A stretch of 64,000 nt of DNA from Polytrichum commune (Eukaryota; Streptophyta; Polytrichopsida; Polytrichales; Polytrichaceae), in the NCBI GenBank assembly GCA_950295325.1, contig OX485803.1, positions 37,525,554 to 37,589,553 of the forward strand. Direction: 5' to 3'. The notes beneath the pieces were generated by a model that saw nothing but the letters and a program-made list of their open reading frames with translations, was not told the origin of the DNA and searched no databases. The position numbers were made by a program, and so were the translations under genes. Shown here piece after piece: positions 2,229 through 59,512 of the stretch (position 1 is its first letter; each line of letters starts with the position of its first letter).

Positions 2229-2547
2229 TTAAGGTAGAGGGGCCCTTTCCCGCTCGGGTCCTTAAACCGCTCACTAGACCTATCCAAACAAGAGGTACAT
2301 TATAGCTTCCAACCTCAAATTTCTATGTAATCATGGTGTACATTTTTGGGGTGAGTGGTTTTGGGTACCCCTATAAGTTATCCTTCCAAAATTCATAACT
2401 AATTCAACATTAATCCAAAATTAATTATTCCAATTGGTCTAATTTCCAATGTACTTTGCACATCTTCCAAGATTGATTCCCCCTTAATAACTCCCCAATG
2501 AACATGCCAATCTGAAATTCGAGCGGGAAAGGGCCCCTCTACCTTAA
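2229..2547. repeat. perfect 28-bp inverted repeat with 263-bp spacer
   Basis: The 28 bases at 2229-2256 recur exactly in reverse complement at 2520-2547. The core is GC-rich and contains the palindromic run GGGGCCC next to CCCGCTCG, unlike the AT-rich surroundings. Both arms lie inside short minus-strand frames (2042-2287 and 2399-2638). The second frame and the sequence upstream of it on the minus strand (to about 2900) encode acidic, Glu/Asp-rich peptide, which suggests a decayed transposon protein, but no family is recognisable. The arms could be TIRs of a small element or the product of an inverted duplication. Confidence 0.6.
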
Positions 2548-5500: not shown

Positions 5501-8500
5501 CAATAAAAACAAGAGGAGATGATTTCTTTGGAGGTCAAGAGGCAATAGTCTAGTGCATGTTTCGTACCCTAGTTGTTTTTTATGACTATTGATAGGATAT
5601 CGAACTTGAACAAACAACAATTTGAGACCATTTGTTGTGAAGAGGCCGAGAAGGCAACATGATTTGATGGTTGGAATTCCAATAAGTATTGTGCCCTCAT
5701 TAGATGTTTTAAAGTAATTTCACTTTAAAATGCTACAGTGGTAACCATGATTTATTATAGTAATTGAACTGATTAGACATTTTTCTTAAAATATAAATGG
5801 GAGAAAATTTCCAATAAATTAATGAATCCAACCTTGACCCCTTAATTCACGTATGTAGTTTGGCCTATTGTCACAATTTATGAATAGTATGGCTACTTTG
5901 TGTGGAGTTGATTACCTTTATTAGAAATAAAATGAGAAAGAGGTAAAATAGAAATGTTTGTTCAATTAGTATGTGACATGTTAGGCCATAAGCTAGGATA
6001 TACTATTTTTTTTTTTGATAGGCCATAGTTTGATAGAAGTGGAAATGATCATTGATATCTATACATGTGGTGAAGAAGGTATATAAGACCATTAGTCTAA
6101 GTAGAGAGGGAGCCCAAAAATTCATTTTTGGATATCAAACCTCTATTGAATTGTATGGCCGTTGAGCTAATTTTAATTGAATTACCAAGCACAACTTGTG
6201 TCTTAGTACATTTATGTGGGATGCATGATTGCAAGTCAATTGTTTGGAGCTCACAATAATTTAAGTTGTCTAGGGTGTTTGTACTAGATTGCAAGTGGTG
6301 TATTTAACTCTTTAATCTATAATCAAATTGTGATAGAATACCTCAAGTATGCAAAGAGTGATTCCTTTGTCTACATGCTAAATTACACAAGCAATAGTCA
6401 TTGAGAGTTTGACTAATTGAGTTCTCATTGCTCACACTATTGTATGTGGTGAGAACAATTGAGAGATTTGTGATCTTGGGAAGCAAGCTAGAGTGATAGG
6501 GTTGGATTTGTAATGAGTGTGTCAACCAGGAGTGATTCATGTGAATTTGTGTATGAAACTTTATACTTCAATGAAGGATCTTTGAATCATTTGTGTGCAT
6601 TTCTTCTTGAGAGGCAAACGCAAAATTTGTATTTGAGTGAGTTATGAAAAACCTCCAAGGAGTTCATGCTGGGGAATCTACAGTCTTGCAGACACTATGA
6701 GTGATTCATATTAGTGGAGAGCCAACTTGTGAAATCGAGAGACTCTGTGAGGGAGTCCGATGATTTGAGGTTGGAATGAGCACATGTGAAGATTGCAATA
6801 AGATATATAGTCTTGTTAAAGATTAATTAACAACAATGTCTTTTAAATGCTCAATCCATTGACTGAGGGATACACTTGAATTTTTTATTGTCCCTTGGAG
6901 TATGTCAATGTGTGTGTGTGTGTGTGCACGCGCACTGATTCTATAATATGAAGCAAGAGGAGTGAGTCCTTGTCATAACCCATATAATTGATTTGCAAAT
7001 TTTGGGAATTTCACAACCAATGTATGTTGTGTTTCAATTTCATTCTACATTTTATGTGTCGTGATTTAGATGATATGGTTGAAGGTGGATTCGATACTTG
7101 ATACGGAAGAACCCCCGATGAAATTCAGTGATAATTCTCAAGAGATAAATATAAAAGCCTAGTAATAAGCAATTGTCTTGCTTCAAGAAATCTTAAACTT
7201 ACAATTGACTAAGTCTGTGAGAATTGAAATTCTCAAGTGTCCCAAAGAGGATTCAAAATGGCTATGGTCTCAAGCTTTCAAAACCATGCGTGCTCTATTT
7301 ACTAACCTTCAACATAAATGAAGCTAAAAGAGCACGTGCAAAATACCGTTGTATGTGAAGTGAATATACCCCAACTGAATTAGTATGGTTTGTATAGAGA
7401 TATCGACAAGGGTGAGAAGGTGAATAGTCTCAATGGCCTAGCTCTAGTAAGTATTACATAGCAATTTAACCTTGTGATGAATTAACCAACATATGCTAGA
7501 ATGGTAACCTTGAATCAATCCAAACCTGGTAATTAAATTCATTAAAAACAATGTTGAAATGTTATAGATGGAATAAGTGTTCAAACATGTAGTTGCTCAA
7601 GAAATGAAAGTATAAATCAAGCATTAAATTAAAACAAGATAAATAAAGAACCAAACCATGTTGATTTCATTATGTTGTGGTTTGGGCTATTGCTACAATC
7701 CATGGGCATAATGGTTACTTTGAACAAGACCATGTAAAAAACTATGGTCTGACCATATAACTAAAATAAATGTATTTAAGGAAAACTAAGAAACTTTGAC
7801 TACACTGCCATTTTCAAGTTACATCAAAAAAGGCTAATTAATTCAAGATTATTGACTACAACAAAGTGCCATTGGTTTTGGTAAAGAAACAAAATGAGAT
7901 ACTACATGCAAGGCTATTGACTATAGTTGTGCCTATGCTTGAGCACCGCACTTGGTCTAATCAAAATGAACTCATTGCTAGACCAATGTTTGAGTAAATA
8001 ATGTGAGATTGAATGGCTGCCACAATTGCATGTACTGACATTGAGAGATGTTGAAGTCTTTGATCCCAAACCCTAACCCACTAGTCAAAATACCGTCATT
8101 TTCACATTTGGACCCCGTGTGCCTCTTAGTCTAGATTAAATTTTGTGTTGCATTACCTAAACCCTAAACCCCTGGGTCAATAACTAGGTTTCGGATGAAA
8201 AATATCAACAACTCAATAAATGGAACATTGAGTCCCATTGTATGATATTCTACAAGGGAGGATATGTAGTCGGCAACTATATGGATCCACATAATTTAAA
8301 TTGAGAACATGACTCTATTTCCTATGGTTTTGGGATATAAGAGAAAGAGTGCCATTAACTTGGAAGTTGATATTACGAGCTTGGAGTGTACTACCGAGAG
8401 ATAACACTTAATATGGAGGGTAGATTGCATGTGGGACTCCTGCCCAACACCTTCAATGTGGACTTTACCATGGTGGATGGGTCTTAAATGGTTTTTTTAC

Positions 8501-10136
8501 TAGCCCACTTGTCCTAGGATATGAAACACACAATTAGTACAACATGGCTATCAATTCCAAATCAAAACCATAGCCGTCACTGACTTTCCTCAGAGTTTTT
8601 AGAGTTTGTGCAAATATCTTTTTCATTATCGAAATGAAGATTCATGTGCTTATTAAATGGTCATATAACCCCCTCTCCACCCCAATTATGTTGACTATTG
8701 AGCCTAGTCTGATGGTGATCATATCTTTATAACTCATCATTATTTTTTGGGTATATGTTCTCAGATTCCCACCAAAATCACATACCACTCAAATATAGGT
8801 TTCCCAATAAGAAAAATATTTGTAGCAAGGTGCACCCTATTGATGAGGTTGCCTCTTAGTCATTATGCTTTCCCAAACTTAGATGATGTAACCCGCTCTT
8901 GACCGGTGAATCCATAAGGTTGAATCAACTTTCTTCCTATTTAATCTAAATTCATTTGTTCTTAGAACCTTTATAAGTGTTTAGAACATATGTGGTAGGC
9001 ATATCACCACTTAAATCTTCTACATTGTTCATGGTATTTAGTGCCACATGCGTAATAGGTGTCACTTGCCCTATTTTGAAGCGTTATATCCTAGCAGGTT
9101 ACATTGATGATTAACAACTTCATCATAGGATTTCATTTTATGTCATTTACCAACATTCAAGTATGCTTACTATTAATATCTTGGCATGAGTATGTTCAAT
9201 ATTGTTATGAAGTGCATGCTTATGTCACACAATGGCTTGCAAGTTGACTAAAGTGTACACAAATGACAAGTCATGCCATAGTATAGTATGCTAAATAATA
9301 TCTTCTTCTTGCATACTAAAATGCAAATGCACAACACTTGTCATTAGTAAACTAAAAATTATTTTCCCCTTGCATACTAAAACACGAGACTATCATTAAC
9401 GTATCACATGGTGCTCCTCTAAATGTCATAATGAAGATGAATTTTCACTAAAAAAAAAATACTTAATAATGTCGATGAATGTAGTCCTATTGACAATTAA
9501 TGGGCATGACACTTTGAAACCTCTAGGCATCTAGTTTAGGCCATTCACAAATAGTTTACATGCCACTAAATACCATAAATGTTGAAGTTGTAAATGTATG
9601 GCCTCCTGAAGTGAAATTTAAAATTTTGATCGACTATGATTAGATGGGAGATTGAGCTCAACATGATTTCCTTTCCACCTCAAGATTTCCTATCATATGA
9701 TGGCTTTGGTCTTTCGATGAACGTCTTGTGACCTTCATGGGCATGCTTGAGGGGGTCGTAAATCCAAGTTTGCTTGAGTGCTCTAACCTCCAATTCTTGA
9801 CCTCACCTTAATAGGTCATGTATCTTACTTACTTGAGTATCTTCTTCCATAATACAATAAAGTGTTTGTCGAGCCATTAGTGATCCGAGCATTGAATTTA
9901 ATCTCCATTTATGTAGGACGAGTGATTAAGTTTCCAAGTGATCCGGATATTTGTATACTTAGGCATCCAAGTTGTGCGTTCTTGACTTCTGCATGTCCAA
10001 AGTATTTGAGTTGCTTAAATGATTTATTTCCAAATTGTCAACCTTCGAATTTCAAGTCCAAGTAACTTTCAAGTTTCTAAGTTAATTTGTGTTTCAAGTA
10101 ATCATCAAGTTATGGAAGAATAACTCAAGTAGTTGG
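2548..10136. other. long gene-free AT-rich stretch
   Basis: About 7.6 kb without a frame of recognisable coding content. The interval around 2600-2900 is Glu/Asp-rich on the minus strand and may be the tail of a decayed transposon protein. A short (TG)9 run lies at 6909-6926. Telomere-like CCCTAAA pieces occur near 8065 and 8158. I see no other feature I can support. Confidence 0.5.
6909..6926. repeat. (TG)9 microsatellite
   Basis: Nine uninterrupted TG units followed by CACGCGCAC, which gives an alternating purine-pyrimidine run of about 26 bases. Confidence 0.9.
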
Positions 10137-10157
10137 TTTTAGGGTTTAGGGTTTAGA
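10137..10157 (+). repeat. interstitial telomere-like TTTAGGG repeat
   Basis: Nearly three units of the plant telomere heptamer TTTAGGG in tandem. It may be an interstitial telomeric remnant or a telo-box-like motif; no gene is nearby. Confidence 0.7.
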
Positions 10158-10412
10158 GATTCCAAGCCCTTTGATGAGTCTCAAAATGTTTGGGCTCTTC
10201 ACGTTCTTCAATTTTCTTCAAACTTCCTAAGCGTTTTAACTCTTAAATGTTCAAGCCTTCATGATTCTTTTTGGACACCTCTAACACCAGAGCTGATTTT
10301 TTTTTGGTTATGTAGCAAAATAGGCTCTATTTTCTTCAAAAATTTGAAGGCGATCGGATAATATTTTATTGGTCAAGTTGATATATGAAATATGAACATG
10401 GCCTTCATCCGC

Positions 10413-10434
10413 GGGGGGGGGGGGGGGGGGGGGG
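10413..10434 (+). repeat. poly-G tract (22 G)
   Basis: Twenty-two consecutive G on the + strand, preceded by GC. It can form a G-quadruplex. Its length could be imprecise in an assembly. Confidence 0.85.
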
Positions 10435-13400
10435 AGTAGCTAGAGAAAAACTTTGAATTTATTTATTTTTGTTTCATGACCATTTTGGTCATGCCCCAAA
10501 TTTTAGAAAGTTGGCAACTTTGCCATAACATGTTATGTGGATGAGAAATGAGCTACTCCCAAGAAAGTGGATTTTTGAGTAAATTTAGATGAAGTCTGTC
10601 ACCCTCAAAGTCCGCTCACTAAGTTTCATCCAAATCCTTCCAGTCAAAGTTGTGCACAACTATCATCTTGTCCTACGGAAAGGAAAAGAAGAAGAACCAC
10701 CCAAATTGGGCATCATATGTAAAAGATATTGGACCCTAAATTTGGGTCGTGCATTTGAGCAACACGTGGAACCAACCCCAAAAACCAACAATGCCAACCT
10801 AATAAAAAATCCTACATTCTTGGAGTATGATGTTCTTATATGTTATTTTGACCCACACGGTAGTGGACACCACCCTACACGGGTACATACCTTCCCATCC
10901 ACATGGATTGCAACTTGATAGTTTGCAAACCCCGATAGAATATTCTATTGACGACTCATTTTGGGTTGCTTGAACATTAAAGGGTTAAGTACTTTTGAAA
11001 GTTTATTTAAGAGTCTCAAGTAACCAAAATCTTATAATTTCTTCAAAAAGTCTCAAGCAAAAGTTTCAAGTATCTCATCCAAGGTACAAAGGTAACATTT
11101 CAACTTTACATGTGATACATTGTTTATGAAATTTAGTACATGCCTTTGAAGTACGGAAGATATATTGTTCTTGCCCCAAGGTGGGATCGTAGTACTTTGT
11201 TCTTTTGGGTCCTTTTTCGTATCATGGCCCGTCCATAGGACTACCATGTGATAGTTACATGTAGGCTTGCCACAAATTCATGTGCACATTGTAAAAATTG
11301 TGGCATAGGTTATGTCATACATTGTCTCCTAGATTGGTATCCAATTGCAACATAAATGAGTTGCCTACACTTATTAGTATCTTAAGGAACAACATGGGCA
11401 TGAATAAACTCACGGTATGGAGATTGCAATATCTCAAGACCAATAATGTTATATGTTTTTACTGTACCATTTAACAGTTTTTTATGATCATCATGGATTC
11501 AAAAGAATATAATGATAAGATTGGTATAACTCAATAGGCGTCGGTGCATTCAGTTGGAGTATATTGAACTTGCCTATGCATCCAAATCATTGTTTACTTA
11601 ACATATCACTCATTATGACGTTCCATATGAATTTTTGATTAGAAATTTGTAACAACCACCTATGTTCGGCATGCACCAAATTATGTGTTTCGTGCATATG
11701 ACATGGCTAGATTTGGAATGTAATGTGAATTGTTTGAGTTTATATAATGAAGGGCATAAAGTAGATAACTAGAGGCCTCAAAGTGTCAAGTCCAATAATT
11801 GATAATATCATAATGATACCCATTCAAGGTCATAATAATTAAGCAATTGGTTGACATGAGAAACAACTTGCTTAATTTAGAATGATATTCAACATAGCAC
11901 AACGGAAGACTTGAGATAAAAGTTTTCAGGTGGTTTAGTTTGTAAGGGGATCAATATATTGTTGAGCATAGTATTGGCAACACTTGCTTTGTGTTTACAA
12001 TTTAGTATGCAAGAGGAAGATATTTTTAAGCACACTAATCTCAAGTGTCATTTGTATACACTGTAGTCAACTTGTAGACCAATGTGTACCATAGGCATAT
12101 AATTCATAACACTCTAAATGAATATTCTTGTGGCAAGATGTTAGTCAATGCAGTTGAACGTCAAGTGTTATGAGGGTGACACTAATGGTGAAGATGGTGG
12201 TCATTAGTATAACCCAACGTGCACCTCTGTGAGCCCAAAATTGATGCCCACATTGGTTGTTAACACTTGTAAAACATTACAAGTGGTGTTTTGGTGATTT
12301 ATGATTATTCATAAAAATATAAAAAGAATGAAGCTTGAAGAAAACTTAGTTTGAAGCATTAGGCTTTTGTGGAGTGGATTTAAGTAGGAGAAGGACAAAC
12401 CTTGGTAAAATGTGGTAGGTAGAAAACCAAGGTTAGTTAAATGTTTGAATTAGGATCATTGTTGATCATTTGAGGGAGGAAGGCTTAGGAGATAGGATAA
12501 GAGCCTACAAAGTAGGAGAAAATCTCGAGGGTTTATCGTGAGCCTTGAGGGTGCTCACCCCCTCAAACTCACTATATAATCTCTCATTCTTCCCTCATTC
12601 ATCCTCTCTTTTCTTCGTGCTCCTTGGCACTCCACGTGTTATAAATGTGGGTGCGTGGGAAGCAAGATAGGAGCACGTGTATGTGCATGGATGTAAGGTT
12701 AGGAGCCAAGGCTAGTTGGCCTTGAAGAGGGTTTGACATCTTGTTAGTAATAGTTGGGCGTGAATGATTTAAAGTTCAATTTATGGCTTTGTTTGAATAT
12801 TTGGATTTATATTGATTAGCCTTAAACTTATGCGGATGTGCAAAGTCTCTTATTGGAGCATTTAGTTTTGTTGGACTTCATATGAATTTTTGAGGGCCAA
12901 AAAACCGAGACTATGTCCAAACTTCCAAAAACTAGTGAAAAAGTGTAGGTTCAAAGGGAACAGCGTAGAATTGCGACCATATACTTTGTGGCAGTAGAAA
13001 TATTATTGCATATTCATGTAGAGGACTTCATTACCTATCCATGGATACCAAGAACTCATTTTTTGGACTTCATATGAATTTTTGAGAGCCAAAAAACCGA
13101 GACTATGTCCAAACTTCCAAACTTCCAAACTTCGAGATTAAGGAGTGTAAGAAGACATAGTATAGACTTGGCTAAGTTGCGTATATTCCCACGATAGATT
13201 GGAATCATACATTGTGTTACAAAGAGAGAAATCTCTACATGTCATTATAAACTTCTCCATTCGGGCTAGGACGAAATTGAAGGGTGGAGGCTTTTTGGTG
13301 ACAACCTCAAAATAGGGTACTAATTAAGTCAAATTGAATCCCACGATGGATATATAAATTCAAGGTGTGTGTGTGTGACTTATGTGGTCATTCTCAGTCG

Positions 13401-13639
13401 GATACAAAGCGTCAATCATGATTCAGCATTGAATGCCAACGGGCACAATATCAAGTTGGAATCGCTAAGCTTAGTTAATTCACATTGGGTTATTTAATAT
13501 CTTACTTTGTAAGCTATATTCAAGTGGCACATGACAATGGTCAGGCGGAGCTCCAAAAAGATGCAAACTAATATTACAACCCTTTAGAGTTATGATATCT
13601 ACTAGGCTTCAAAGTCCACATAATTGGGGACATGTATGA
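10435..13639. other. gene-free stretch
   Basis: No recognisable coding frame. A 45-bp segment beginning TTGGACTTCATATGAATTTT near 12872 recurs near 13065, so there is a local direct duplication about 190 bp apart. No terminal repeats were seen around it. Confidence 0.5.
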
Positions 13640-13810
13640 CCAATTACATTATGACCACAATAAATTATCATTTTGGCAATAAATAAGATATTCATATGAT
13701 ATGAGCTCTAGCAGCTACGGCCTCCACTTGGAACTTTTGCTAGCCATTTTGCAATGATCGTGTGTTTCATAACCTAGAAGTGGTCTAGTAATCTATGAAG
13801 TCCCATAAAA
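13640..13810 (+). repeat. dispersed repeat H, partial copy
   Basis: Shares the segment containing AAGATATTCATATGA, GAGCTC, GGCCTCCA and TTTCATAACCTAGAAGTGG with copies near 28262-28665, 33610-34010 and 49800-50650. Only the 3' part of the repeat is recognisable here. Class unknown; it may be a solo LTR or an old MITE. Confidence 0.5.
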
Positions 13811-13921
13811 TGCTTTGCAATGGAACACAAATTGGGAACCTTGTTGGCTTGTATGTGGTGGCATGTGGAGCTATGTAGGTGGGCCTTGGATATAAGCATG
13901 TGAGGTTGGCATGCAAAGTTA

Positions 13922-14422
13922 GGGGCAGTTTACACTATGGACCATGAAGTCGTCCCACGTAAGAGGCCTATTTTGCTTGGGACGACTTCCATGGTCTGAG
14001 TTACTAAAATATTAGTTTTCATGGTTCATGGGCCCTTCACTAGGTGTAAACCGAATGTGGACCAAGAGGAATGACCATACACCAAAAAGTGAAGGTGCTA
14101 ATTTTTTTAATACATGCCCAAAAAAAATCGGGAAAACAAAATATTAAAAAAAAATTCGGCCAATGGCTGATTTTCAGCCTTACGGCTCCCTTGATTTCCG
14201 TTGAGTCGAGCATTTTGCCTCGCCTCAACGGAAAACCCATTGGACCATGGCACATTATCCAAATGGCAGATTTTAGTAGTTTTCGGGGACCTCAAAGTTA
14301 GTGGTCATTCTCCTTTTTTCAAGGTAGTGTAAAGCCAAATGGGACCAAGAGCACTTTACTCTCCAATCACAGATTTTAGAATTTCATGGTCATGGCTCTT
14401 GGTCCATAGTGTAAACCGCCCC
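13922..14422. mobile_element. PIF/Harbinger-like non-autonomous TIR element
   Basis: A 501-bp element flanked by the 3-bp target duplication TTA (13919-13921 and 14423-14425). The left end reads GGGGCAGTTTACACTATGG and the right end is its imperfect inverse, GTCCATAGTGTAAACCGCCCC. A TWA target and GGG-starting TIRs are typical of Tourist/PIF-Harbinger MITEs. The subterminal region is itself a foldback: ACCATGAAGTCGTCCCA near 13941 pairs with TGGGACGACTTCCATGGT near 13978. An internal block (about 14040-14075) matches, inverted, the block at about 37180-37215 in another element of this group. No transposase is encoded. Confidence 0.75.
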
Positions 14423-14571
14423 TTAGCAAGGCCTCACGTATTGTATAATTAAGTTTTGCAGATCGGGGGTTTGGACCCTAGTACTTCTTGCTAATTGAGC
14501 CAAACTTGGGGTACATGGTCTTGGGTTTAGGGGTTTAGGTTTTGGCAAAACTTTAGAGCCTGGAACTCTAA

Positions 14572-15100
14572 GGGCCGCTTAACACCTAGAGGCCGGGCCA
14601 ATTCATTGTGTAAGAGGCTTGAAATCTTCACTTGTCCTTGGTCAAAAGGCTGAAAATGGCCCCAACCCTTTACACCTAGAAGCCGGGCTCATTTGGTGGT
14701 ATGAATTTTTTAATCTAAAAATGCATGGCCTGACACAATTTGAGCTCATTGAATTGGGTGCAACCAAAATGGAAGGCCAATTCTTGGTCTTGGGACCAAT
14801 GTCAGATTTCCAAAAAATACATATGTATATTTAAAATAAAATATGATTTTTTTAGTGAACCATATCCATTGGATTATGTGGAAATTTGAATGACTCTATG
14901 CTAAATCCGTTGGATTATGATAGATATATTGAATCGGTCTAGCTTCTTGGCCCTCAGGCCTTTACGTATGGGGAAATTGGCCCCCATTATAATATTATTA
15001 TAATGTGTAGTTGAGGCCGGCCTCCAACCCAAAAGGGGATGAAATTTCATGCAATTGGTCTCAAGGGGAATTGGCCTGGCCTCTAGGTGTAAAGCGGCCC
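14572..15100. mobile_element. PIF/Harbinger-like TIR element, second subfamily
   Basis: A 529-bp element with left end GGGCCGCTTAACACCTAGAG and right end CTCTAGGTGTAAAGCGGCCC, which are inverted repeats. The flanks are TAA on the left and TGA on the right, so the target duplication is probably TAA with one later change. A further copy of the subterminal block (TTACACCTAGAAGCCGGGC) sits inside at about 14676. It lies only 150 bp from the previous element. No coding capacity. Confidence 0.7.
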
Positions 15101-15784
15101 TGAGGAAAGTTTTAAGATTGGTCATGCTCTCATCATGCTCTTTGTCTCAAACCTCAAACAATTATCATGTGCTCAATATGCATTTCCTAATTATGAGCGC
15201 TTACTATTGGCTTTTAAATTCAAACATGAGCATGAATATTCAAGTTTGAAGAATACAATGTATTTTAGTCTTGCAAAAATAGCGAGGTGCAAATTTTGTT
15301 CTCTTAACATCACAACTTTCAAAAAGATCCCATGACAATCAAGTTTTCACTTGGCGGAGTTTGCATCTTTAGTACGTAATTTAGTTCGCCATTCACCCTA
15401 GAGTCGACTATTGGGACTTGTTTTTCAACAATTTTATGTTCCCAATACATCTAGCCAATGTAAACCCTTCATTTTGGAGTATTGACTCAAGAATTTCACA
15501 AAACAATTTGAAACCTTTGTTTGATTTTTGTGAGACTTAAATTTTTCACCACAAAAAGAAAGTGAAACAACATGACTTGGTTTGCAACCACATCCCCACA
15601 TTCCAAAAGCATTCTCATGAGCTTAGAGGGGTTGGAGGTCTACAAATCCTTCGATGGCATGCACATATTGATTTCATTAAAGCATGATCAAAAGTTATCC
15701 TTAGACCCGCTCACAACCAAATTTACCTAGGTTTGCCAATCAATGGCCTCCACTTGTTGGCCGTCACCGTTAAGGTTCTATTTG

Positions 15785-15808
15785 CCCCCCCCCCCCCCCC
15801 CCCCCCCC
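15785..15808 (-). repeat. poly-C tract (24 C)
   Basis: Twenty-four consecutive C on the + strand, hence a G24 run on the minus strand. With the G22 tract at 10413 this is the second unusually long G/C homopolymer in 5.4 kb. Confidence 0.85.
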
Positions 15809-18800
15809 AATAAGCTCATGGGTTGCAACCCTAAGGCCATTTTGTGGGGCTACAAAGATTTCCTTTAAGCATTGTCCAACCTTGAACAAGCTAGGGCCTC
15901 CACTACATGCCCTTGGATTTCGAGCCACTCCGTTAAAACAACCACCATCCACCTCTAGGTTTGATTAGCCGTGTTAGTGACCCTATTGCATGGCAACATA
16001 TGTGACACTTGGCCGCGATCTACGTGGTAACCTACTTGGCATGTTGACTTCCTTTGTGGGGTCCATTCACGATTGAGGTACTACTTTTGGGACAAAGGAC
16101 TTAAGGACTTCGCAATATTTGGGTACGTTTAGGGTATTTTTATTAATTACCAAAAAATCGGGGAGAACCAATGGCCGGGATCTTCTCGGATAAGCGTCAG
16201 CGGGAAGGTGACGGGATTTCCATAGCAGCATGAATCCAAAATAAAAATTGACGATTTGGCGACATCAATGGCTTTTTTTTGTTATTTAGGTGTGCATTGG
16301 TGGTCAATTATTTCTTGTTTTGCATCTTGGTACCTTGGCATAAGTGTCATGTGTCCATTCATATGATTTTTTTGTCTAATTCTTATACTAGACGTTCCTT
16401 TTACGTGTGGCCGTGTACATATGTATTTTTGGCCATGTTTGGTGCCACATGTAAAGTTGGGCAATTGGTATTGAATACATACTTGGTTCTATTGGTACAC
16501 ACTTGAACGATGATTGTGAGGAAAAAATTTGGGATCGTTTCGACTAATTCTTGTTGTCCTTTTCATTCCTTGATCTTAAGGTGAACAATTAAGACAACAC
16601 TCCTAAATGTTCTTTAAGGAATCAAAATGATATCTTAGATGACCCTATTCCATCTAAATTAACTTTGTCGGTGTACTCAATATGGAGTATGAATGGTAGG
16701 TATGATCCAAAATATGCTTCACAATACAAATCCAAGCATACCAAGCATGTGAAGTTATCCAAAAAAGTCCTTTTTCCGTTAGACACCCAAAAGTAGTACC
16801 CCAACCGTGAATGCCCCCTGTGGTTGTTTGAGGCTATGATGGTGGAGAGAGTTCCACCAACAACATCCATTATGACAATGGAAGGATTTTTTTTGTTTGT
16901 AAAGATAGCATAAAATAGTGGTTGCATAGGAGACAATACTATGTAAAATGTATGTAGCAATCTCATAAGACCCCGTCACTTAAACCGAACAAAAAAAATA
17001 TGCATTTTTGGTGAGAGTACAAGATGCTTGGAACATGAAGCAGTCTAGAACAATTGTGCAAAAAAAAATTGGCACGAAACTTGGAGAAAAAGTGGGGGAG
17101 CATCAAGCACAATCATGTTTCCAAAATTTCATGGGATTTATCTTAAAGTGAAGGCTCTCATTGAGAGTGGGAAGAGTGATGAGGATCTACTTTGTGAATC
17201 GCTTGAGTAGTGTACACTTAAGCATTCAAAGGGTTTGGATTTGGGTATGAACATTGTTTCCACATTATGAGAGAGGTGCCATGATGATTGAGCTTCGTGA
17301 TGACTCAGTGAAGACACTTGAATTGCTCAAGAAGAAGAGGTTTGTTGATGCATTGGGTGCACATGAGGAATTGGGCATGGTGAGCAAGGTTGCAAAACCG
17401 TCATCACACATAATTTCAAGATTACTTGATGGTTCACCAAATGGAGGGTGTCCAAGACCTCCATGTGTCAATGAAGCAAAAAAAAAAATTGTTGATTTGC
17501 AAGACACATGAGCAAGCGGCATGAGCTCAAGCCCTTGAGCATCTTTTGAGATGGCAACAACAACATGTCCAAAGGCTCAAGTTTTGCAAATATTGTGGTG
17601 CAACAACTATTTGGCATCAACACCTCCAAAATCAAGGTCCCCATAGCATCACGTTCATGTTTCTCCCTTGACATATATTGCTCCTTATATAATCATCAAT
17701 CCAATAGGTCTAGGTGAGGACTTAAATGTGGAAGAAAATGAAGAGGAAGAAGATGACTATCTTGATGGTTCATGATAATTTCAAGATGAGGTGAATGAGA
17801 CACCCTTTGGAGTGTGGCGAGGATTCATTTATTGAAGAGGCTTAAGACTGTAATTTTTGGGTACAAAAATATGAAATATGGCCACAACCATAGTCATAAC
17901 CAATGTTTCTATTTAAGTTTTGACATGAATTTTAATTTATTTTGAAATAGTCATTTATACAAGCATTATTGATGAGTAGTGCAACAATGTCCTTCAACAT
18001 GTACAAGAACTACCAAAAAAATTCCCAAATCATCAACATGTGATGCAAATTTTGCAATAAAACTTGATCTTTTGATTTTTTTATCATTGAATTTTTATTT
18101 TTATTTTGCTTCGTTTTTTTGTTGGTATGTGTTGAACTTGAAGTTTGAAAGCATGTTCAAGTGTAGTTAGGTTTTTTCTATCACTTAAACTAACCCAAAG
18201 GAAACAACCCATGGTACAAGGTCTTAAAGAAGATTGAGCTAGTGTTTATGAGGATTAATGTCACATTGGATTCAAGTATCTAGCAACAATCTATGTCTTC
18301 TACTCCATTGTTCCCTCTTATAAAAGCTTAATTCACACTCGTATGGTTCATTGGTGTTTTTCAATTATGTGTGGTTTGTCCTATGTGTGTGGATTTTTAT
18401 CACTTTGTCACTATGTCCACTCACTATGTCAATTATGAAGTTCAAAACTTCACAAGTAGTCAATGGCTCATAGTTAGGACAATGCCCAAGGTAATGTTTT
18501 TTGAGTAACCACATAGTCTTAATTGCTATGAATTGTGATTGCGATAATCTCAAAGTTAAGTTCTCTTAATCAACTTACAACCATCATGCAAGTCTTCACA
18601 ACTGTAATCACTACCTTTGTCTTCAATGGACATGACAACTTGTCTCAAGGATCAATCACACATGTGATTACAATAGCAAGACATAAACGAGATAAGTTGT
18701 AGTCTTTCTTCATATGTTTTAGCCTGATTTTAATTTATCGAATAATCTCCATTGTGTTATAAACCTATTGCAAGTGTGGTCAAGTCTTCCTTCTACCAGG

Positions 18801-21800
18801 GTGATTCCCTTGGTAGCCTATAGCATGCTCCAAAATATCTTTATGCCTCATCATCTCTGCATGTAGATTCATTGCATGCTATAACAAGATGAAGTGACTT
18901 ACTAGGCTATATTCTTCTCTTTGTACCTACCTAAGGTAAACCCTTTCACTCTTATACGGCTATCTTCCAATCTAGGACTTGGCTATGGCCTTTGAAATCC
19001 CAATGATAACATCCACGCCCATCTTAATTAGGGTCTATGTGTTTCTTCCCTTTAGTCATATTAATTTTCTTTATGTTTGTCCATGAGAGTTACCCTCTCT
19101 TTGTCTAAATCAAGGTTATTTGCCTTCTAACCCAATCTAGGTGTTAGCTTTCCCTTAACCTGGTCATGAGGTTATCATGCCATTACTTGTTCTTCATAAG
19201 GCCGTTGCCCTTCCCTCAATTCGTTGATTCTCTATCTTTAAATGGGCACTTCACTCTTATGCATTGTTTGAGGCTATTGCCCTTCATTTGAAAATTAATC
19301 TCCACTGTCTCTCACAAGTTATCACCTTCTCGCATACCATTAATCTTACAATTTTCTCCTCTACCTGAAAGATGTCTTCCTCATTGCTTGTCTCTTAAGC
19401 TTTATTCATCACTCATGCCTATGGCCCATAAACTCATTCACACTACTCCAAGTACTAGAGAATCTCTTATCTCATTCCTTTCCTTTGAGTCAATCGACTT
19501 GTTTGGACTTTGTCATCTCTTTTACCTTCTAACAACCAATTCTCTCACTCAATTCTCAATGGCCATTGCCTTTCACAAGCTAAGTGAACAAACATACCTG
19601 GCCATTGCCTAGAACTCCATCGTCCTTTCTCTTATTGCCCTTGTATCTCATTTTTACGAACAATATGCTTCTTAGACTATTACTTATATTTCCTTGATCA
19701 ATCTCAATATTGGCTCTTATACTCTTTAGCTTCTCAACTCCTCTCCTACAAGGGAGCATTTATCAAACCATAGCTCTCATATAATTCATCTTGATTATGG
19801 TATTAGCCATTAGTCTTCTTAATGACCAAGAGTAATCTCTCTCTCTCTCTCCGCGTATCGCCATGGTTTATCAACATCTATTCAATCTTGGCTGACACAA
19901 CCTCTCAATCACTTTACTTCCAACTTAACAAACCTCTTGCACAATCTACTGCTCATAGCCTCCTCTTCAACACATCTCACAGTTTTACTTACTTCGAACC
20001 ATAGAGTTCCATACCAACATTCCATTCACACATACAATTATAGAACATCCATATTTATTCACTCACGTGTCACAATTTAATAAGGAAATTTAGGAGTTTG
20101 AATCATTCAGCTCCATCAACCTACATCTATCCTCAAAACTTGCTTGGGATTGTCCTATCAACTACACCACCGATCTCCATCATTGAGTTTGGGGTTCAAA
20201 AACTATGATGAGACTATGTCAAATTCTACAGATGAAAATAACTCCCTCCTACCTTGGCCGACCTTCTCCTTATTGAATCAAAAGGAAGGAGAAGGTGGTT
20301 ACATGCAACAACCATCTTATCACGGCAGTGGCCTTCTAATCCTACTATCATGGATAATATTTTAATTACCAAACACTAGATGAAAGCCACCAAAATGTTA
20401 GATTTGCCTGCTTATGCCGGGCTATGGCCCAAAAAAAAAGGCTTACATTAAGCTTACATGTGTGTTGTGCTCAAAGGGTGCTCAAGAGTTTGAACCAATT
20501 TGATGTAAAAGGGTTGATTTCATTGCAAGTTTCAAGAGTTGGTGGTCAGAGCTCTCTTTGTGTTGTTTTTGGAGCTCTATTGTTGGTGAATTCTTAGCTC
20601 GCTTCATTGTCATGCAACCCAAAAATTATTATTTGGGCAGTTGGGTAGGCGGGCAATTGAAGATCTGTTTGACATCCAAATCTTGACATGTTTGGTTCCA
20701 TTGATAGCCAATGCGTGTTGGTTTTGGCCAAGCTAGTGGTTGGAACATGGCATACTACTATAACAAGGGCTATATAAGTTTTCTTTTGATGGGTTACATG
20801 TGGTCATGTTGGATGGGTTGCATGTGGTAAACCATATACTAGAACATGTAAGTTATGCACGTTTTCTTATGCTTTTTGCCTATTAATTACCAAATCATTT
20901 GTGATGTTGAATTCATTAAAGTATATTTTGTTGGTGGAAGGAGCAAGGAGATTGAATTTGTGATCACCATCCTGCCCATGTACACAACATGGCTTGGCAA
21001 CCGAGCTTCCTCATAGCATTATTCAATGATGCAACTTTGTTCAACCAAACAAGGATCTATTCATGTGCGATTCTATAATATTGGATATGTTTAGTTTGAA
21101 TTTCATGCATGTTACCTAGTGTGCTTTAAATATGCATTTCTCATATTTCAAGGCAAAAAATGGAAAGGTGCATGCAAAAAACATTTTTTTGGAAATTTGA
21201 GATATGGTTGACGATTTATAAGTGTAAAAAAACAACAACACAGTTGCTCTAAATAATATAATGCTAATAAATAAGCTATTCAAGCCCATGAAAGGCCCAA
21301 GACAACCATTGTGGACCTCAAAACATGGTACAAAGATGTTTAAGGTTTGGCAACTAGCCAATTAGTTGGTCATACGAATGATGATTGCAACTAAAATAAA
21401 TCAATTTATTAGTTGACATTCTTCAAATCGGACCGATTGGGGACCAATCTTCATATATGTTATAGATGATATAAGCAAGCCAAACTCAAATTTGTAACTT
21501 ATGTTCACATGCATGTTGAGTGGATTTGAGCACTTTTAAATGCTTGTTTGACACCCATATGAAATGTCATTTACACATAGCCCTTTTGAAGATTAAGCCT
21601 AGCATTTCTCAAGGAGCCGATTCACAAAATCCTCTGCTCCAAATGCCTTGTTGAAAAATACTAGGCCTTTACAGCCATTTTCCAATTACTACATGAATGT
21701 AACATGGAGCCGGGAATGTGCATGCTCATGGGGAATGGTGTATGTTGGATGTCATCTGGAGTTGGGAGTGATGGATGTGTCAAGAGAATGATGTAATTCG

Positions 21801-28261: not shown

Positions 28262-28665
28262 GGAAGTAGGTAACCACATTAAGATTGTCTACCATTAGGT
28301 AAGCGGGCCTAATTTGGTTACTTATCTTAAATGAACACCTACATTTTAGTGGTGTTGGTTTATAAATGTAGATCTAAGAACAAGAATGGCCACGTGCTTC
28401 AAAAAATAAGTGGACTTCGGATTCAAAATTGATAAACCATTCTAGACTCAATAACCAATACAAAACGTGGAAAGTGGGAAGTGGCCACATGATCATTTGT
28501 TAAGATAGAGATCTTGCAGTTTAACAATGGATAAGATATTCATACCCGCTCCGTAAATTATGAGGAAAATGGCTATGGACACAATTTAGAATTTAGAATC
28601 ATCTCGCACTAATTCTGTGTTTCATTTCCTACAAGAAGTGGGTGTAGCACTAAAAGTGTCTGTTC
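28262..28665 (+). repeat. dispersed repeat H, copy upstream of the CASP-like gene
   Basis: About 400 bp that aligns from end to end with 33610-34010: GCCTAATTTGGTTACTTATC, CAAGAATGG, GTGGACTTCG, ACCATTCTAGACT, TTATGAGGA-A-GGCT, CTCGCACTAAT, GTTTCAT-TCCTA-AAGAAGTGGG in the same order and strand. The two copies flank the CASP-like gene. Confidence 0.65.
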
Positions 28666-28760
28666 AAGACCTACTTACTATATACGGGAAAAGAATTGGA
28701 TACCATTACACACCCAAGAACGAATGAAAACAGAACAGTGCTCCAGGGTGAGTCATTCCT

Positions 28761-33609: not shown

Positions 33610-34010
33610 GAAATCAAATTTGGGTGGGAAGTCTATAACATAAGGTAGACGTGCCTAATTTGGCTACTTATCTTACTCAGCCACCTATTATTCAGTGGTA
33701 TGTTTAAGTCTTGCTGCAAGAATGGATACTAAAAAGGCATCTTGTGTCTAAAAGTGATTGGACTTCGCGCTCAAAATATGATTACCATTCTAGACTTAAC
33801 ATTCAAGGTAATTGGGGAGGACCTATGTAACTATTTTATGAGCACAGAATTTGTTACTCTGATAATTAAAGAGGATTTTACATGAGCTCCGAGAGTTATG
33901 AGGAGAGCGGCTCCAACTTCGATTTGGATTTGCTAACCATCTCGTACTAATCACGTGTTTCATATCCTAGAAGAAGTGGGCTAGTCAGGAAAGCAACTGT
34001 TTAAGACCCA
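33610..34010 (+). repeat. dispersed repeat H, copy downstream of the CASP-like gene
   Basis: Same order of blocks as the upstream copy at 28262-28665. This uninterrupted copy also shows the empty-site form of the repeat (ATGAGCTCCGAGAGTTATGA) for the insertion found at 50076-50485. Confidence 0.65.
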
Positions 34011-34350
34011 TCCACCTTAGTGGTGGAGCCTCGAATGATGTGATGTATAAACACTAAACAGTTTTATTTTTCCCTTCCAACTCATGCATCACTTAATTTC
34101 ACAGCGTTTTCATCGTCTTTGGCTAGGAATGATGTCTTTCGAATCTGTACACTCCAATTTGCTGTGTCTCACCGATATGATTTCAGAAAGTTCATTATGC
34201 CAAACTCTCCGCTTCTAGTGCCCCCCATGAATGGACCCATGATCTCACACTGGGCTCACCTACCTCAAGAAGTCCACCAAGAAACCCAACACCTACTTGA
34301 CATACTTATGAGCAGTCAGCATAATCGATGAATGGGGGAAAGGTTTGCCA

Positions 34351-39540: not shown

Positions 39541-39994
39541 GGTTGTGCATTCTCTCTCTCTCTAGAGCTGCGCGCCGGTCCGCCCCACCAGCCGCCTGGC
39601 GGAGGTCCACGTGGCCCCCCGCAGTTGGCCGGATGGGAGTGTGTGCAGACCTATGCATGAAGCTCACACGTCAGGCGGGCAGAGAACGTCTTGCTGCCCC
39701 AATCTCTGCTTCTGCCCACTTCCCGCATTCATCTTCATGGACCTTTGTACCTCAATATGTGTCTGTGAGTGTGAGAGAGGAAGGAGAGAGGGAGTTTGAA
39801 ATTGTTCCGCAATAAGATACTTGCAAAGATATTATCAGGCGGAGGGCGGTGAACCCGTGGCTTCCAGGCTAGGGTGGATGGTCCGCTTCGCTACCCTCGT
39901 TGGCGGAGCTGGATGAGATTCATTGTCTCCGCCAGGGGGAGTGGCTAATGGTTGCTCATGTGCGCGGCACCTCTCTCTCATTCACGTGCGCCCT
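39541..39994 (+). other. GC-rich island next to retroelement copy B
   Basis: About 450 bp much richer in G and C than anything nearby, with CpG-rich blocks (GCGCGCCGG, GGCGGAGGGCGGTGAACC, CTCCGCCAGG). The frames across it differ in every phase and show no domain, so I do not call a gene. It ends in a GT/CT/CA microsatellite and then the retroelement. It may be a 5' region of the element, a separate captured fragment or a SINE-like insertion. Confidence 0.4.
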
Positions 39995-40008
39995 CTGTGT
40001 GTGTGTGT

Positions 40009-40073
<65 letters not shown>

Positions 40074-42076
40074 ACACACACACACACACACACACACTTG
40101 ATGAGATAGTATGTGGGCATTATACCTACTTTTCGTCACTAGTGACATGCCCTACCACGCTAAGACAATTCTCCTCCCCATTTACCCGAGACAAAGTATT
40201 CGGATCAATAGGAACATCATTCCAACATAAATGGATAGGGAACGGGTATGCCCACCCACATACAGAAGAGGACATACAACAAGCCCTACACTGGGCAAGA
40301 CTTGCAGCCCAAAATAACCCAGATACAATTACAATACTCATAACAACCGACCCAAATTGGTACCACAACCTCCAACCCCATGTAGGCCATTTTCCAGATT
40401 CCCACGTCATCACACACTTTAAAGCGGACACCATTATATACGATGAACCCACAATACCACCAGAACTACGTATTGAACCCCACACAAAAAGCCGTGACAT
40501 CCACATACTATGCATACACCACAAAACCACGTCACTCGGCCCAAGAAATTATGCACACCAAATGGGCATTATTGGTAATACCTTACAAATACCCATTATA
40601 TTTAACACAACGGCACCACCCACACCAATAAACACCCTAGTAAACCGTAGCAAGAAATGGTCCCAACTCACATACCCTCCCCCGCCTACGACCCAAGTTA
40701 CTAATGTCCCCATAAACACAAACCAAGACATATGCCTCCCCCTCAAATATCAACCACAGTTCTGCTACTACACAGACGGATCATTCATCCCACCCAAAGA
40801 AATAACCCAAGGACATTGGAAACGAGAAAAAGCAGGATATGACATATATAATCCTTTTAAAAACCTCCAAATCGCAGAAAGACTACCCGAACTCCAAAAT
40901 ATACTAAGAGCTGAACTAATGGCTATTCACCATACCCTCCGCCTCCTCACTACTACATATCAAAACGAACCGGCACACATCTTCACAGATTGTCTTAATG
41001 TGCTATACCTACTAAACACACAAACAAAACACCCAACCCTACATAATAGCCACCCAGACAAAAAGATACTCGAATCTATCATAGAGATGTTGCAATCCCG
41101 CACACAAACCACCACACTCCATAAAGTCAAACCACACACAAACATTAGTGGTAACGAACAAGCGGACAAATTAGCCAAAATGGGATGTGAACTCGAACAT
41201 AGAAATGCCATAATCACATATGAACATGCACACCCCACGCCATACTATCTACATAAAGACTGGTGGCACTCAATGCAAGAAACACCAGATAAAGGCCCCA
41301 TCCGACACCTTGGTAAATACATTGCTAAACATGACAAAAAACATGACCTATCCATTATAGCAACCCAAACACATCAACTACACAAGTGGCTCGACAACAA
41401 AGATATTGACAAAACACTATCAAACGATTTTTGGAACAACCCGATCATCACAGATAAACAAAAAACATGCCTAGTAAAATTCAGAACCGGACAATACATG
41501 GGACATGCTAGAAAACAACTCTTCTTCGGAAGAAATGCATACCCCTCACATACGTACCCCCTATGCAACTCACAAGAAGCAGACACATGGTTACATGTAC
41601 TCCTCAAATGTAAACAACAACACATACATGCACTAATAACAAAAAGACATAACAAAGCCGTATGGGAAATACGCAAACTTCTCATCTCAAATAAAATAAC
41701 AAGGTACTACACACTTATGAATGCAGGTACATATAATGAGCTCCCCCAAGAAAACACAGTACCATCATGGTTACTTCCATGCACATGTAACACCCAAAGG
41801 TGTCACTGCAACGCTAGGCTCAAACCCGACATATTATGTATACTGGGACACCCATATAAATCCCCACCACCAGACGCACCCACACCGGAACTTACCGTCC
41901 AATTTATAGAATTCATGTACTATAATGATAGGTTCTCCACAAAATCACTAGAAAGAAAAATCACCAAATATCAACCGCTCATCAACAACATCAAAGAAAA
42001 AGGATGGAACGTAGCCCCGCTTATAGTACTAGCTGCAGGTGCCAGAGCCACAACATATATTCCTTCAATGGCATAA
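39923..42076 (+). CDS. retroelement ORF copy B: RNase H + zinc motif + PD-(D/E)XK-like endonuclease
   Basis: A 717-codon open frame; the first 60 codons are microsatellite read-through, so real coding starts near 40100. Residues about 85-230 are an N-terminal region (FSSPF, FGSIG, then ITTDPNWY and HVITHF) whose layout recalls PCIF1-type adenine methyltransferases with the NPPF motif lost; this is speculative. RNase H follows with a complete set: D285 (YTDGS), E331 (RAELMAI), D356 (FTDCLN), H405 and D415 (GNEQADKLAK). Next is a zinc-like C..H..C region whose first Cys is Tyr here but Cys in copy A, a CTCNTQRCHC cluster, and a KPDIL (D636)..FIEF (E663)..KITKY block as in restriction-like endonucleases of early-branching non-LTR elements. 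A TAA at 42074 is probably premature: the frame continues to 42229 and that tail is conserved in copies A and C. No reverse transcriptase is seen upstream, so the copy is 5'-truncated or the element keeps RT elsewhere. Confidence 0.7.
39995..40097. repeat. compound (GT)n(CT)n(CA)n microsatellite
   Basis: About 9 GT units, about 28 CT units and about 12 CA units in succession. It is read through in frame by the downstream retroelement ORF, which gives a Ser-Leu and Thr-His repeat that is not part of the real protein. Confidence 0.9.
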
Positions 42077-49799: not shown

Positions 49800-50075
49800 A
49801 TGGGTCTTCACGTCATTAAAGATCCTAACTTGAATGCAAATTATGTTAATCAAGTCTTAATCGGACGCATATATTTACGTGGTATGTGGTTAAAGGTCGC
49901 TCCAAGAATGGATACCGTAAAGGCATGTATTTAAAAGATATTGGATTACATGTTCAAAATTATGATAATCGTTTCAAATTCAATAGTCAACATAATTTGG
50001 GGAACTCATATCACCGTTTAATGAGCATGAAAATCTTCACCTTGATAATGTATAAGATATTCATATGAGCTCCAA

Positions 50076-50195
50076 GGGTGGCTTGATTCCAAGGCGTTAA
50101 CCTAGATCCCATGTGAATTCCAAGGTTAAGCCGCTCAAGGGTGGAGTAGCACTTAGATAGGTGACCTTCAAAGCACTTGGTTTGTGGTGCATCCT
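50076..50195 (+). pseudogene. 5S rRNA-like sequence
   Basis: Aligns along the usual length of 5S rRNA: GGGTG at the 5' end, GATCCCAT at position 30, AATTCC, GGTTAAGC, TCAAGGGTGGAGTAGCACT (5S: TTGGGCGAGAGTAGTACT), GATAGGTGACCT, and GTGGTGCATCCT at the 3' end. It is too diverged for a functional rRNA, but the internal control region (GTTAAGC, GGGTGACC-like) is recognisable. It forms the head of the insertion above. Confidence 0.65.
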
Positions 50196-50485
50196 ACCAC
50201 CTATGGTCCACCCAATCATAGTAGGGGTATGCGGATTCACTGAACATTTTTCAACCAACCATGTGGGAACCTAGAGTCTTGACCTTGGGGGAGATAGGTG
50301 CCAACCGGCTTCTCTGCGCCCGTTCAAGGTGTTTACCTTCTAAAGGAGACAACAATCTTTTGGGCCCCTCTCATTCTCATAATGCATGTCCCGGGATTAC
50401 AATAAACTTGGACCAACTTGAAAATGAAGCAAAACTATTTTAACTCACGCTGGTGGAAACATTGGGGTCGTCTTTCTTTGCCAAA
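50076..50485 (+). mobile_element. candidate SINE with 5S rRNA-derived head
   Basis: A 410-bp insertion in a dispersed repeat. CTCCAA stands immediately before it (50070-50075) and after it (50486-50491), a 6-bp target-site duplication, and uninterrupted paralogues of the host repeat lack it. The insertion begins exactly at a 120-nt sequence alignable to plant 5S rRNA, which would supply an internal Pol III promoter. The remaining 290 bp is unique in this window and ends GTCTTTCTTTGCCAAA, without a poly-A tail. This layout fits SINE3-type elements. A Cassandra TRIM LTR also carries 5S sequence, but there it lies inside the LTR, not at the element edge. Confidence 0.6.
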
Positions 50486-50650
50486 CTCCAAAAATCATGA
50501 GGAAAGTGGCTATGGCCTCCATTTGGATTCCTAAGGTTCCAGCCTGTTATATTATCAAAAATCACGAGGAAAGTGGCTATGGCCTCCATTTGGATTTGCT
50601 AAGGTTCTATCCTGTTATATTGATAGCGTATTTCATAACCTCAGAGAAGT

Positions 50651-51927
50651 GGCAACCTGCTACTACATAAGTAAGGATGAACTGATTCTTCATGATGTGA
50701 ATATTCGACTGGTGTATTTCACATGAAAGTCTTGCGTATTCCATAGCAGGAGCAATTACCACAACTGGAATTGGGTGGAGAGATGAAGCCATTGATAGAG
50801 GCAAGGTGAACTGATTTCAGAAGTGCATTTGTGTAGCTTACTACCTGAAATTTCAGGTCCATATAAAAATGAGATAGCCACAGCAACATAGTAGTATGAA
50901 ACATACAAGACTAACAGCAATTCTTACCAGGCGGCCGCCACGAGGTGCATCTGAGGAGTTAAGAGCTGGGATCCATGGTGTCGAGAACATCACTATCTGA
51001 TGGCTCTCTCTTTCTTGGATCCCTCCTGTTCATCTTTTCCTGTGGGTGGCTTCAAACCCAACCTACACAATGACAACATGTCCAGTCAGAGAAGAGGATA
51101 CAACCAGACTGTCACCACTTCTCTCAGGATGTTTCACATGCGATCAGCACGAGATGATTTTCAAAATCCAGCTCATTGAGCGCATAAGCTGTAACTTGTC
51201 AGCTGGGTTTCAACTAAGACACCCTCGAGGCTGGACCACATTGCATCAAATGATTCGGATGCATCGGGTTTGAGGAATTGTAACCCTGCGAGCTGGTTGC
51301 ACATATGTGGACCTGAGTGCATTTTGTGGTTCTCATTTGCACTAGTGCAGCAAGCTATGCTAATGATGCAAGTTTTAGGGAAGCATGCCGGAATCGGCTT
51401 CTCGTTCTTCTTCTGGTTCTTATAGGATTTCCGTGTACAAAGTGAGGGATTCCGGGTGGGAATATTCAGAGAGGATTAGAACATCCTCTCGTCTTGTGAT
51501 TCTTGTCAGCAATTATCATTTGGTAGGTCCGTCGTCCCAAGCTACTCTTGTCTTGTTGCAAATCTTGTTGTAGTACCATAGATAGAAAGATATATACTTA
51601 ATGTCCTTGACCTTGAAAAGGCTATAGTTCTTGGCCTCCACAATTTCCTCCTTCAAGGTTTGAACTTTTCAGGTTGATTCATCACTATCAAACTCCCACC
51701 ACATTGACAGCCCGATTGCTACATTGTGATCAATCCGGAAGATTAGCTAGTTGTAGATGTAAAGGTGTAGGAGGATCTCGGGTACACGACTGGCGGAGGT
51801 TATTATCGATGTACTTACATCTTCGACAACATCATGTGATAGGAGACAAAAACTTGGGGGAGGGGGGAGTGGGCGATTGAATCATCAGACATCAGCTACG
51901 TGAAGATTCATCAGGACTCTGATCAAA
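50651..51927. other. region upstream of YUCCA
   Basis: No gene recognised. A NotI-like GCGGCCGC occurs at 50932. The sequence AGATATATACTTA near 51590 is a possible TATA box about 330 bp before the YUCCA start codon. Otherwise I see nothing to assign. Confidence 0.35.
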
Positions 51928-58968: not shown

Positions 58969-59512
58969 AAATGGACACTTCCACCTCCAAAGACAAATTT
59001 GACTCTTGGATTGGATCATGAGTTGTTACATTTGGTTAGTAATGGGCAAATCATGCAGATTGTCATTCAAAACTTTTGGAATCAGATTTGAGATGCACAA
59101 GTTATAGGAGGGCATCAAAGTGAAGATTCTCTTTTTTGACCCTCCCATTTCTGTGAACAATTGAACCTAAAGTGGTAAAAATATTTTAGCACATGGTTTC
59201 ATCTCATCGCGCACACATCATAATTTTTTTATGTCCATTCTTAACTACAATTAACCTTGCCATGTGTACCACTGAAACATAGATGTACGATTAAGAAGAG
59301 TGACTGCAAAAGGCCCACCCACCTTATGTAATGCCTCCGAGCACTATAATGGTGCATCGTGATATGAATGAGCCTTGACATAAGAATGAACCTAAATCCA
59401 AGAAAATGGAGATTAGGTAGATCCCAATTCTCACCTCTAGAGGTCAAATGCCTCTCCACTGCGCCTTGTTAATAGCTTTTTGCTTGAATCCAAAGAAGGT
59501 TGTGGAGATGCA

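Follow-up and report, generated by a model that had tools for sequence, protein, structure and literature searches.

What is a stretch of about 400 bp that opens like a 5S rRNA gene doing in the middle of a repeat in a moss genome? The locus lies in a 64,000-nucleotide stretch of Polytrichum commune (GCA_950295325.1, contig OX485803.1, positions 37,525,554 to 37,589,553 of the forward strand), which we call the window and whose positions are used below. A first-pass annotation, made from the letters alone, had read the insert as a SINE with a 5S rRNA-derived head and noted that such a family would be unusual in a plant. Here we describe the insertion itself, its relatives in the genome, and the other known or conceivable elements for which it could be mistaken. 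The gene content seen is of land-plant type (FMO-like and Casparian-strip-type domains, a Plant_tran transposase, DUF3531, and zinc-finger genes flanked by 5S-like units, described below); the FMO-like domain is YUCCA-like.

The insertion and its 5S-like head

The insert divides a target repeat whose left half occupies 49855-50075 and whose right part occupies 50486-50553 (both on the plus strand). The left half was delimited by blastn and nhmmer searches within the window, and the right part matches 28549-28590 as well as the copies at 33.9 kb and 8.6 kb. Immediately before the insert, at 50070-50075 and abutting 50076, stands CTCCAA, and the same motif recurs at 50486-50491; these are the exact cores of the left and right target-site duplications (plus strand). 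Three other copies of the repeat (28325-28591, 33671-33931, and 8812-8554 on the minus strand) span both halves and cross the insertion point uninterrupted, and so provide empty sites. The 6-bp duplication and the uninterrupted copies at 28.3 and 33.6 kb that had been reported earlier are thus both borne out, and the 8.6-kb copy likewise lacks the insert. The target repeat is itself old and dispersed; the window holds about six copies, not all of them complete (8467-8818 on the minus strand, 13498-13791, 28288-28679, 33621-34040, 49854-50653 [interrupted], and 59141-59333 on the minus strand). A tandem duplication (50489-50553 and 50556-50621) is also present in the right flank, the units lying about 67 bp apart and being 92% identical.

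The right junction requires some care. The insertion had been described as 410 bp long (50076-50485); its start stands, but its end has to be moved inward, because the family's own 3' end (TCTTTCTTT) falls at about 50479, which gives an element of about 404 bp. The hexamer GCCAAA at 50480-50485 (plus strand) lies beyond the family unit, the alignment of which stops at 50479-50480; it resembles the 8.6-kb empty copy and is probably target sequence rather than element. Exact duplication in the window copy is just 6 bp, and its duplication score of 6 is a level reached by 9.6% of mismatched pairs (the test is described below). Past the exact duplication, the right junction and the 8.6-kb empty copy are alike (TTTGC-CAAACTC / TTTGCACAAACTC; P about 0.005, the sole positive among four comparisons), but the score against the left flank itself is 0, so a longer, decayed target duplication in this copy would be a guess.

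The head occupies 50076-50195 on the plus strand and corresponds to 5S base 1 to about 120, as judged by the Rfam match and by comparison of a 40-copy consensus with a 5S gene of the host (see below). The earlier statement that the insert begins at a 5S-like 120-mer agrees with the Rfam 5S model (RF00001), which matches 50076-50193 over its full length (1-120) at 21.3 bits (E 0.094 over all families; curated cut-off 38). No family reached its cut-off in the Rfam scan of the window. Local alignment of the insert to a plant 5S reference sequence scored 27; the maximum was 15 both among 1000 dinucleotide-shuffled inserts and elsewhere in the window. Because the Rfam match is full length yet below the cut-off, and the alignment score lies above all shuffles, the head is, on its sequence, 5S-derived but not a working 5S gene. 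The best of 20 other copies, at 27.7 bits, likewise failed the Rfam threshold of 38 for a functional 5S rRNA gene; the 12 best host 5S loci (among the best 47 of 15430 candidates) score 98.0-109.6 bits.

Alignment to 5S places the parts of a 5S-type internal Pol III promoter on the plus strand of the head. The box A region (GGTTAAGCCGCT) is at 50124-50135 and agrees with the published pattern at 9/12 positions, and the box C region (TAGATAGGTGACC) is at 50154-50166 and agrees at 12/13. The region between them at 50144-50152 (GAGTAGCAC) corresponds to the intermediate element. Taken by itself, the box A pattern occurs in the window about as often as chance predicts (792 places at 3 mismatches vs 802 expected), and there are eight places that match box C at 12/13, compared with 4.5 expected. 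Folding adds weak evidence, both for the window-copy head (z-score -0.34; 63 of 200 shuffles at least as stable) and for the consensus head (z-score -1.68; 13/200).

A dispersed family with fixed ends

The check proposed in the first-pass annotation was a search of the host genome with the insert. We searched the 408-Mb assembly (64 sequences, of which seven hold 406.1 Mb), and the best 40 of 1701 candidates comprised the window copy and 39 others, most of which span base 1 to about 404 of the 410-base query. The 39 were fetched and aligned; as the best matches to the window copy, they are biased toward full-length, well-kept elements. The majority consensus of the 40 copies is about 398 bp long up to the tail start, and a second genome search using it (best 40 of 2706 candidates) returned largely the same places, with a top identity of 90%. 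The window insertion is one decayed member of a family of short copy-and-paste elements.

Family size was approached in two further ways. Allowing up to 2 mismatches, a 28-base pattern from the 3' end was found at 225 places and its reversed control at 0. In a sample free of the best-match bias, twenty evenly placed 10-kb stretches at round coordinates, four contained one match each (three strong, one weak), and scaling gives about 6,100 copies from three matches (interval 1,300-17,900) or 8,200 from four (2,200-20,900). The family probably comprises thousands of copies. In the portions still present, the four copies from the sampled stretches share 70-83% identity with the consensus, and so are more decayed than the best matches. 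The family looks old, because identity above 90% to the consensus is absent among the best 40 of 2706 candidates, and it looks inactive at present.

Downstream from the head, 50196-50470 (plus strand) is a family-specific body, common to the aligned copies and with no Rfam family above cut-off (cmscan). No tRNA gene was found in the window, and a scan of 20 copies matched no tRNA family at E up to 1. The body bears directly on the idea that a one-off retroposed 5S pseudogene, or a read-through 5S transcript, landed here by chance. With its 5S-like head, the window copy considered in isolation would be compatible with such an event, but the same body of about 280 bp is present in many dispersed copies. 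At ten host 5S loci, the match to the SINE profile is confined to profile positions 10-127, which is the gene itself, and the spacer after the gene is unmatched. We consider a chance origin of this kind to be extremely improbable.

Both ends of the element are well defined. In 38 of the 40 copies, the alignment begins no more than 4 bases from 5S base 1, and the common 3' end is reached in 37. At this 3' end there are at least two TTTC units in 29/40 copies and at least three in 14/40 (11/40 are without two). Comparison with the tails of other copies identifies TCTTTCTTT at 50471-50479 (plus strand) as the remnant of a TTTC-type tail in the window copy. Since the search query had the head as its start, the flanks were also compared. 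The left and right flanks of the 40 copies are mutually unrelated, except in one pair of loci (L020 and L033) that is alike in both flanks and is a duplicated segment.

Target duplications were evaluated by pairing the left flank of each copy with the sequence after its 3' end, with 1560 mismatched pairs as the control. Scores of at least 8 were obtained for 12/40 copies (1.1% of mismatched pairs), at least 7 for 19/40 (3.0%), and at least 6 for 26/40 (9.6%). The other 14 copies fall below 6, which is unsurprising if the copies are old. The clearest duplications are those of L024 (13 bp, exact), L036 (12 bp), and L011 (10 bp), and resolved lengths range from about 8 to 15 bp.

Capture of a 5S gene by a non-autonomous DNA transposon could likewise produce a short dispersed repeat with target duplications. 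However, the ends of this element are not inverted repeats (GGGTGGCTTA at the start, and CGTCTTTC plus the tail at the end), the duplications vary in length, and most tails are a variable simple repeat, all of which makes a DNA transposon very unlikely.

The more familiar way for a plant retroelement to carry 5S sequence is that of Cassandra, a TRIM with 5S inside its LTR, and the insert could be conceived as a solo LTR or fragment of such an element. Cassandra has been reported from many land plants in the cited parts of PMC10853983 and PMC7215508, and a 5S-like promoter core is likewise present here, with box C one mismatch away from the published pattern. However, the unit opens with GGGTGG at 5S base 1, not with TG, and closes with a TTTC-type tail. 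For the Cassandra primer site (TGGTATCAGAGC), the best place differs at 4 positions in the consensus and at 5 in the window copy, and the insert has none with 3 or fewer mismatches. Paired TG..CA LTRs are absent, and both the unrelated flanks and the varied duplication lengths argue against an LTR origin. The first-pass annotation had named copies extending upstream as TG..CA LTRs as a finding that would count against a SINE; the flanks of the 40 copies share no LTR. We regard a Cassandra-type origin of the insert as highly improbable.

The preferred reading is thus a SINE. The dispersed copies, the fixed 5' end at 5S base 1, the common body, the TTTC-type tail in most copies, the duplications, and the conservation of the promoter core (see below) together leave us with little doubt that the insert is one copy of a 5S-headed SINE family (SINE3 type) in a land plant. 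The genome search accordingly supports the reading of the first-pass annotation, for which a lone copy would have pointed to a chance pseudogene: many full-length copies begin at the 5S end and share a 3' end, with unrelated flanks and, where resolved, duplications of about 8-15 bp.

Promoter conservation and proposed mode of spread

For a 5S reference from the host itself, ten loci were read (the rows for L073 and L074 show the same gene), and the first locus was used for comparison. The 12 strongest 5S matches (among the best 47 of 15430 candidates) are distributed over five sequences of chromosome size (C1, C2, C3, C5, and C6), rather than forming one array. One pair of host 5S genes, at L073/L074 (C2:45902799-45904116), is oppositely oriented and separated by 1.2 kb.

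The consensus of the 40 copies and the first host 5S gene share 84 identities in 117 aligned positions. These are unevenly distributed, with 55/67 identities at positions 31-97 and 29/53 outside (Fisher P 0.0014, for a boundary that was picked after viewing the alignment). Positions 31-97 are the location of boxes A, IE, and C. The consensus also shares with the host 5S the stretch GGCCGGAATAGTAC, which the plant 5S reference sequence lacks, and because of this shared stretch the head probably derives from the 5S of this lineage itself.

Individual copies present a different pattern. Their differences from the consensus at non-CpG sites amount to 10.4% in the promoter, 10.8% in the rest of the head, and 9.7% in the body, and at CpG sites to 36-38%. 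In an Rfam scan of 20 copies, 5S was matched in 4 with E no higher than 1, and in none above the cut-off. The most economical interpretation is that source elements remained transcribable, and that inserted copies drifted and lost CpGs. The promoter core is the best-kept part of the consensus, whereas single copies diverge about equally throughout at non-CpG sites, a pattern to be expected if source elements, rather than their inserted progeny, were under selection.

By analogy with established SINE biology, the 5S-derived internal promoter would allow RNA polymerase III to start at the first base of the unit and transcribe all of it. By target-primed reverse transcription, the enzyme of a LINE would then copy the RNA at a nick in the chromosome, beginning at the tail of the RNA, and this process would leave the target duplications. 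After insertion, copies would decay neutrally, and fastest at CpG sites. It should be noted that the consensus carries TTTT at 172-175, which could be an early Pol III stop and would speak against efficient full-length transcription.

We looked for the LINE that might have supplied the enzyme, and no partner emerged from the candidates compared. The window contains a LINE at 39917-42076, with an RNase H domain and at least 63 genome matches (best 62 of 6938 candidates), many of them at 80-90% protein identity and with long open frames, and for this reason its family may have been active recently. When the stretch after the reading frame was compared with the SINE body and tail for two copies of this LINE, scores were 33 and 37, with shuffle maxima of 41 and 50, although these stretches may fall short of the true 3' end. 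Another LINE piece, near 24.4 kb in the window, looks like the SINE by eye and scores at background. Among TTTC-like runs in 322 kb of partly overlapping sequence, no non-SINE relative of the tail was convincing, the nearest being a 21-base match (E 0.026).

Paired 5S-like matches on C2 and C7 were considered as Cassandra and dropped, since they adjoin C2H2 zinc fingers. The two loci (C2:59433450-59434050, L078 with L084; and C7:14287950-14288550 on the minus strand, L079 with L083) are similar to one another, with 449/470 positions identical, and each has two tandem 5S-like units 182-183 bp apart that score 42.8-51.9 bits. Three zinc fingers (Pfam zf-C2H2) were found in the C2 copy and one was seen in the C7 copy, and TFIIIA chains are among their best solved-structure matches. 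These units would fit the plant 5S rRNA mimic of TFIIIA genes (P5SM), here doubled.

Relation to SINE3, Cassandra, and other plant SINEs

The family is a SINE3-kind member from an unexpected kingdom. Like zebrafish SINE3, SINE3-1_TC, and HaSE3, it has a 5S head at its 5' end, an unrelated body, a tail, target duplications, and dispersed copies. In HaSE3, too, the stretch that holds boxes A, IE, and C is described as the best kept (in the cited part of PMC3272025). The family differs from these elements in its land-plant host, in the host-5S stretch GGCCGGAATAGTAC within its head, and in its TTTC-type tail. The hosts of SINE3 given in the portion of PMC7245038 relied on here are vertebrates and some insects, and an excerpt of PMC5063351 adds a fungus. 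Other plant SINEs (Au, p-SINE, ZmSINE, and TS) are likewise short non-coding retroposons of plants, but the land-plant entries in the cited section of PMC3747384 have tRNA heads where this is stated, and (A)n or (T)n tails. The same section gives a (CTTT)n tail for SINEX-2_CR of the green alga Chlamydomonas, which is paired with RandI LINEs (PMC3747384). Among the open-licence PubMed Central papers listed, judged by title and abstract start, we found no plant 5S-headed SINE; a prior record may exist.

Cassandra is similar in that it is a plant retroelement that borrowed a 5S promoter, and it differs in its two LTRs, its primer site, and the position of 5S within the LTR (as described in the cited parts of PMC7215508 and PMC10886601), all of which are absent here. 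One published speculation is that insertion of a SINE3 into an LTR gave rise to Cassandra (PMC10886601, in the passage cited). The bolder proposal, that elements such as the one described here are old in land plants and that one of them gave Cassandra its 5S promoter by inserting into an LTR, we think unlikely; what has been shown is one such SINE family in one plant genome. The family supplies the missing kind of donor for the Cassandra-from-SINE3 proposal, which can now be tested by comparison. There is also a caution for annotation, in that many 5S-like matches in a genome such as this are SINE heads. More broadly, the presence of so large a family in a land plant implies one of two histories for this rare head: an independent acquisition in plants, or an origin far earlier than has been thought.
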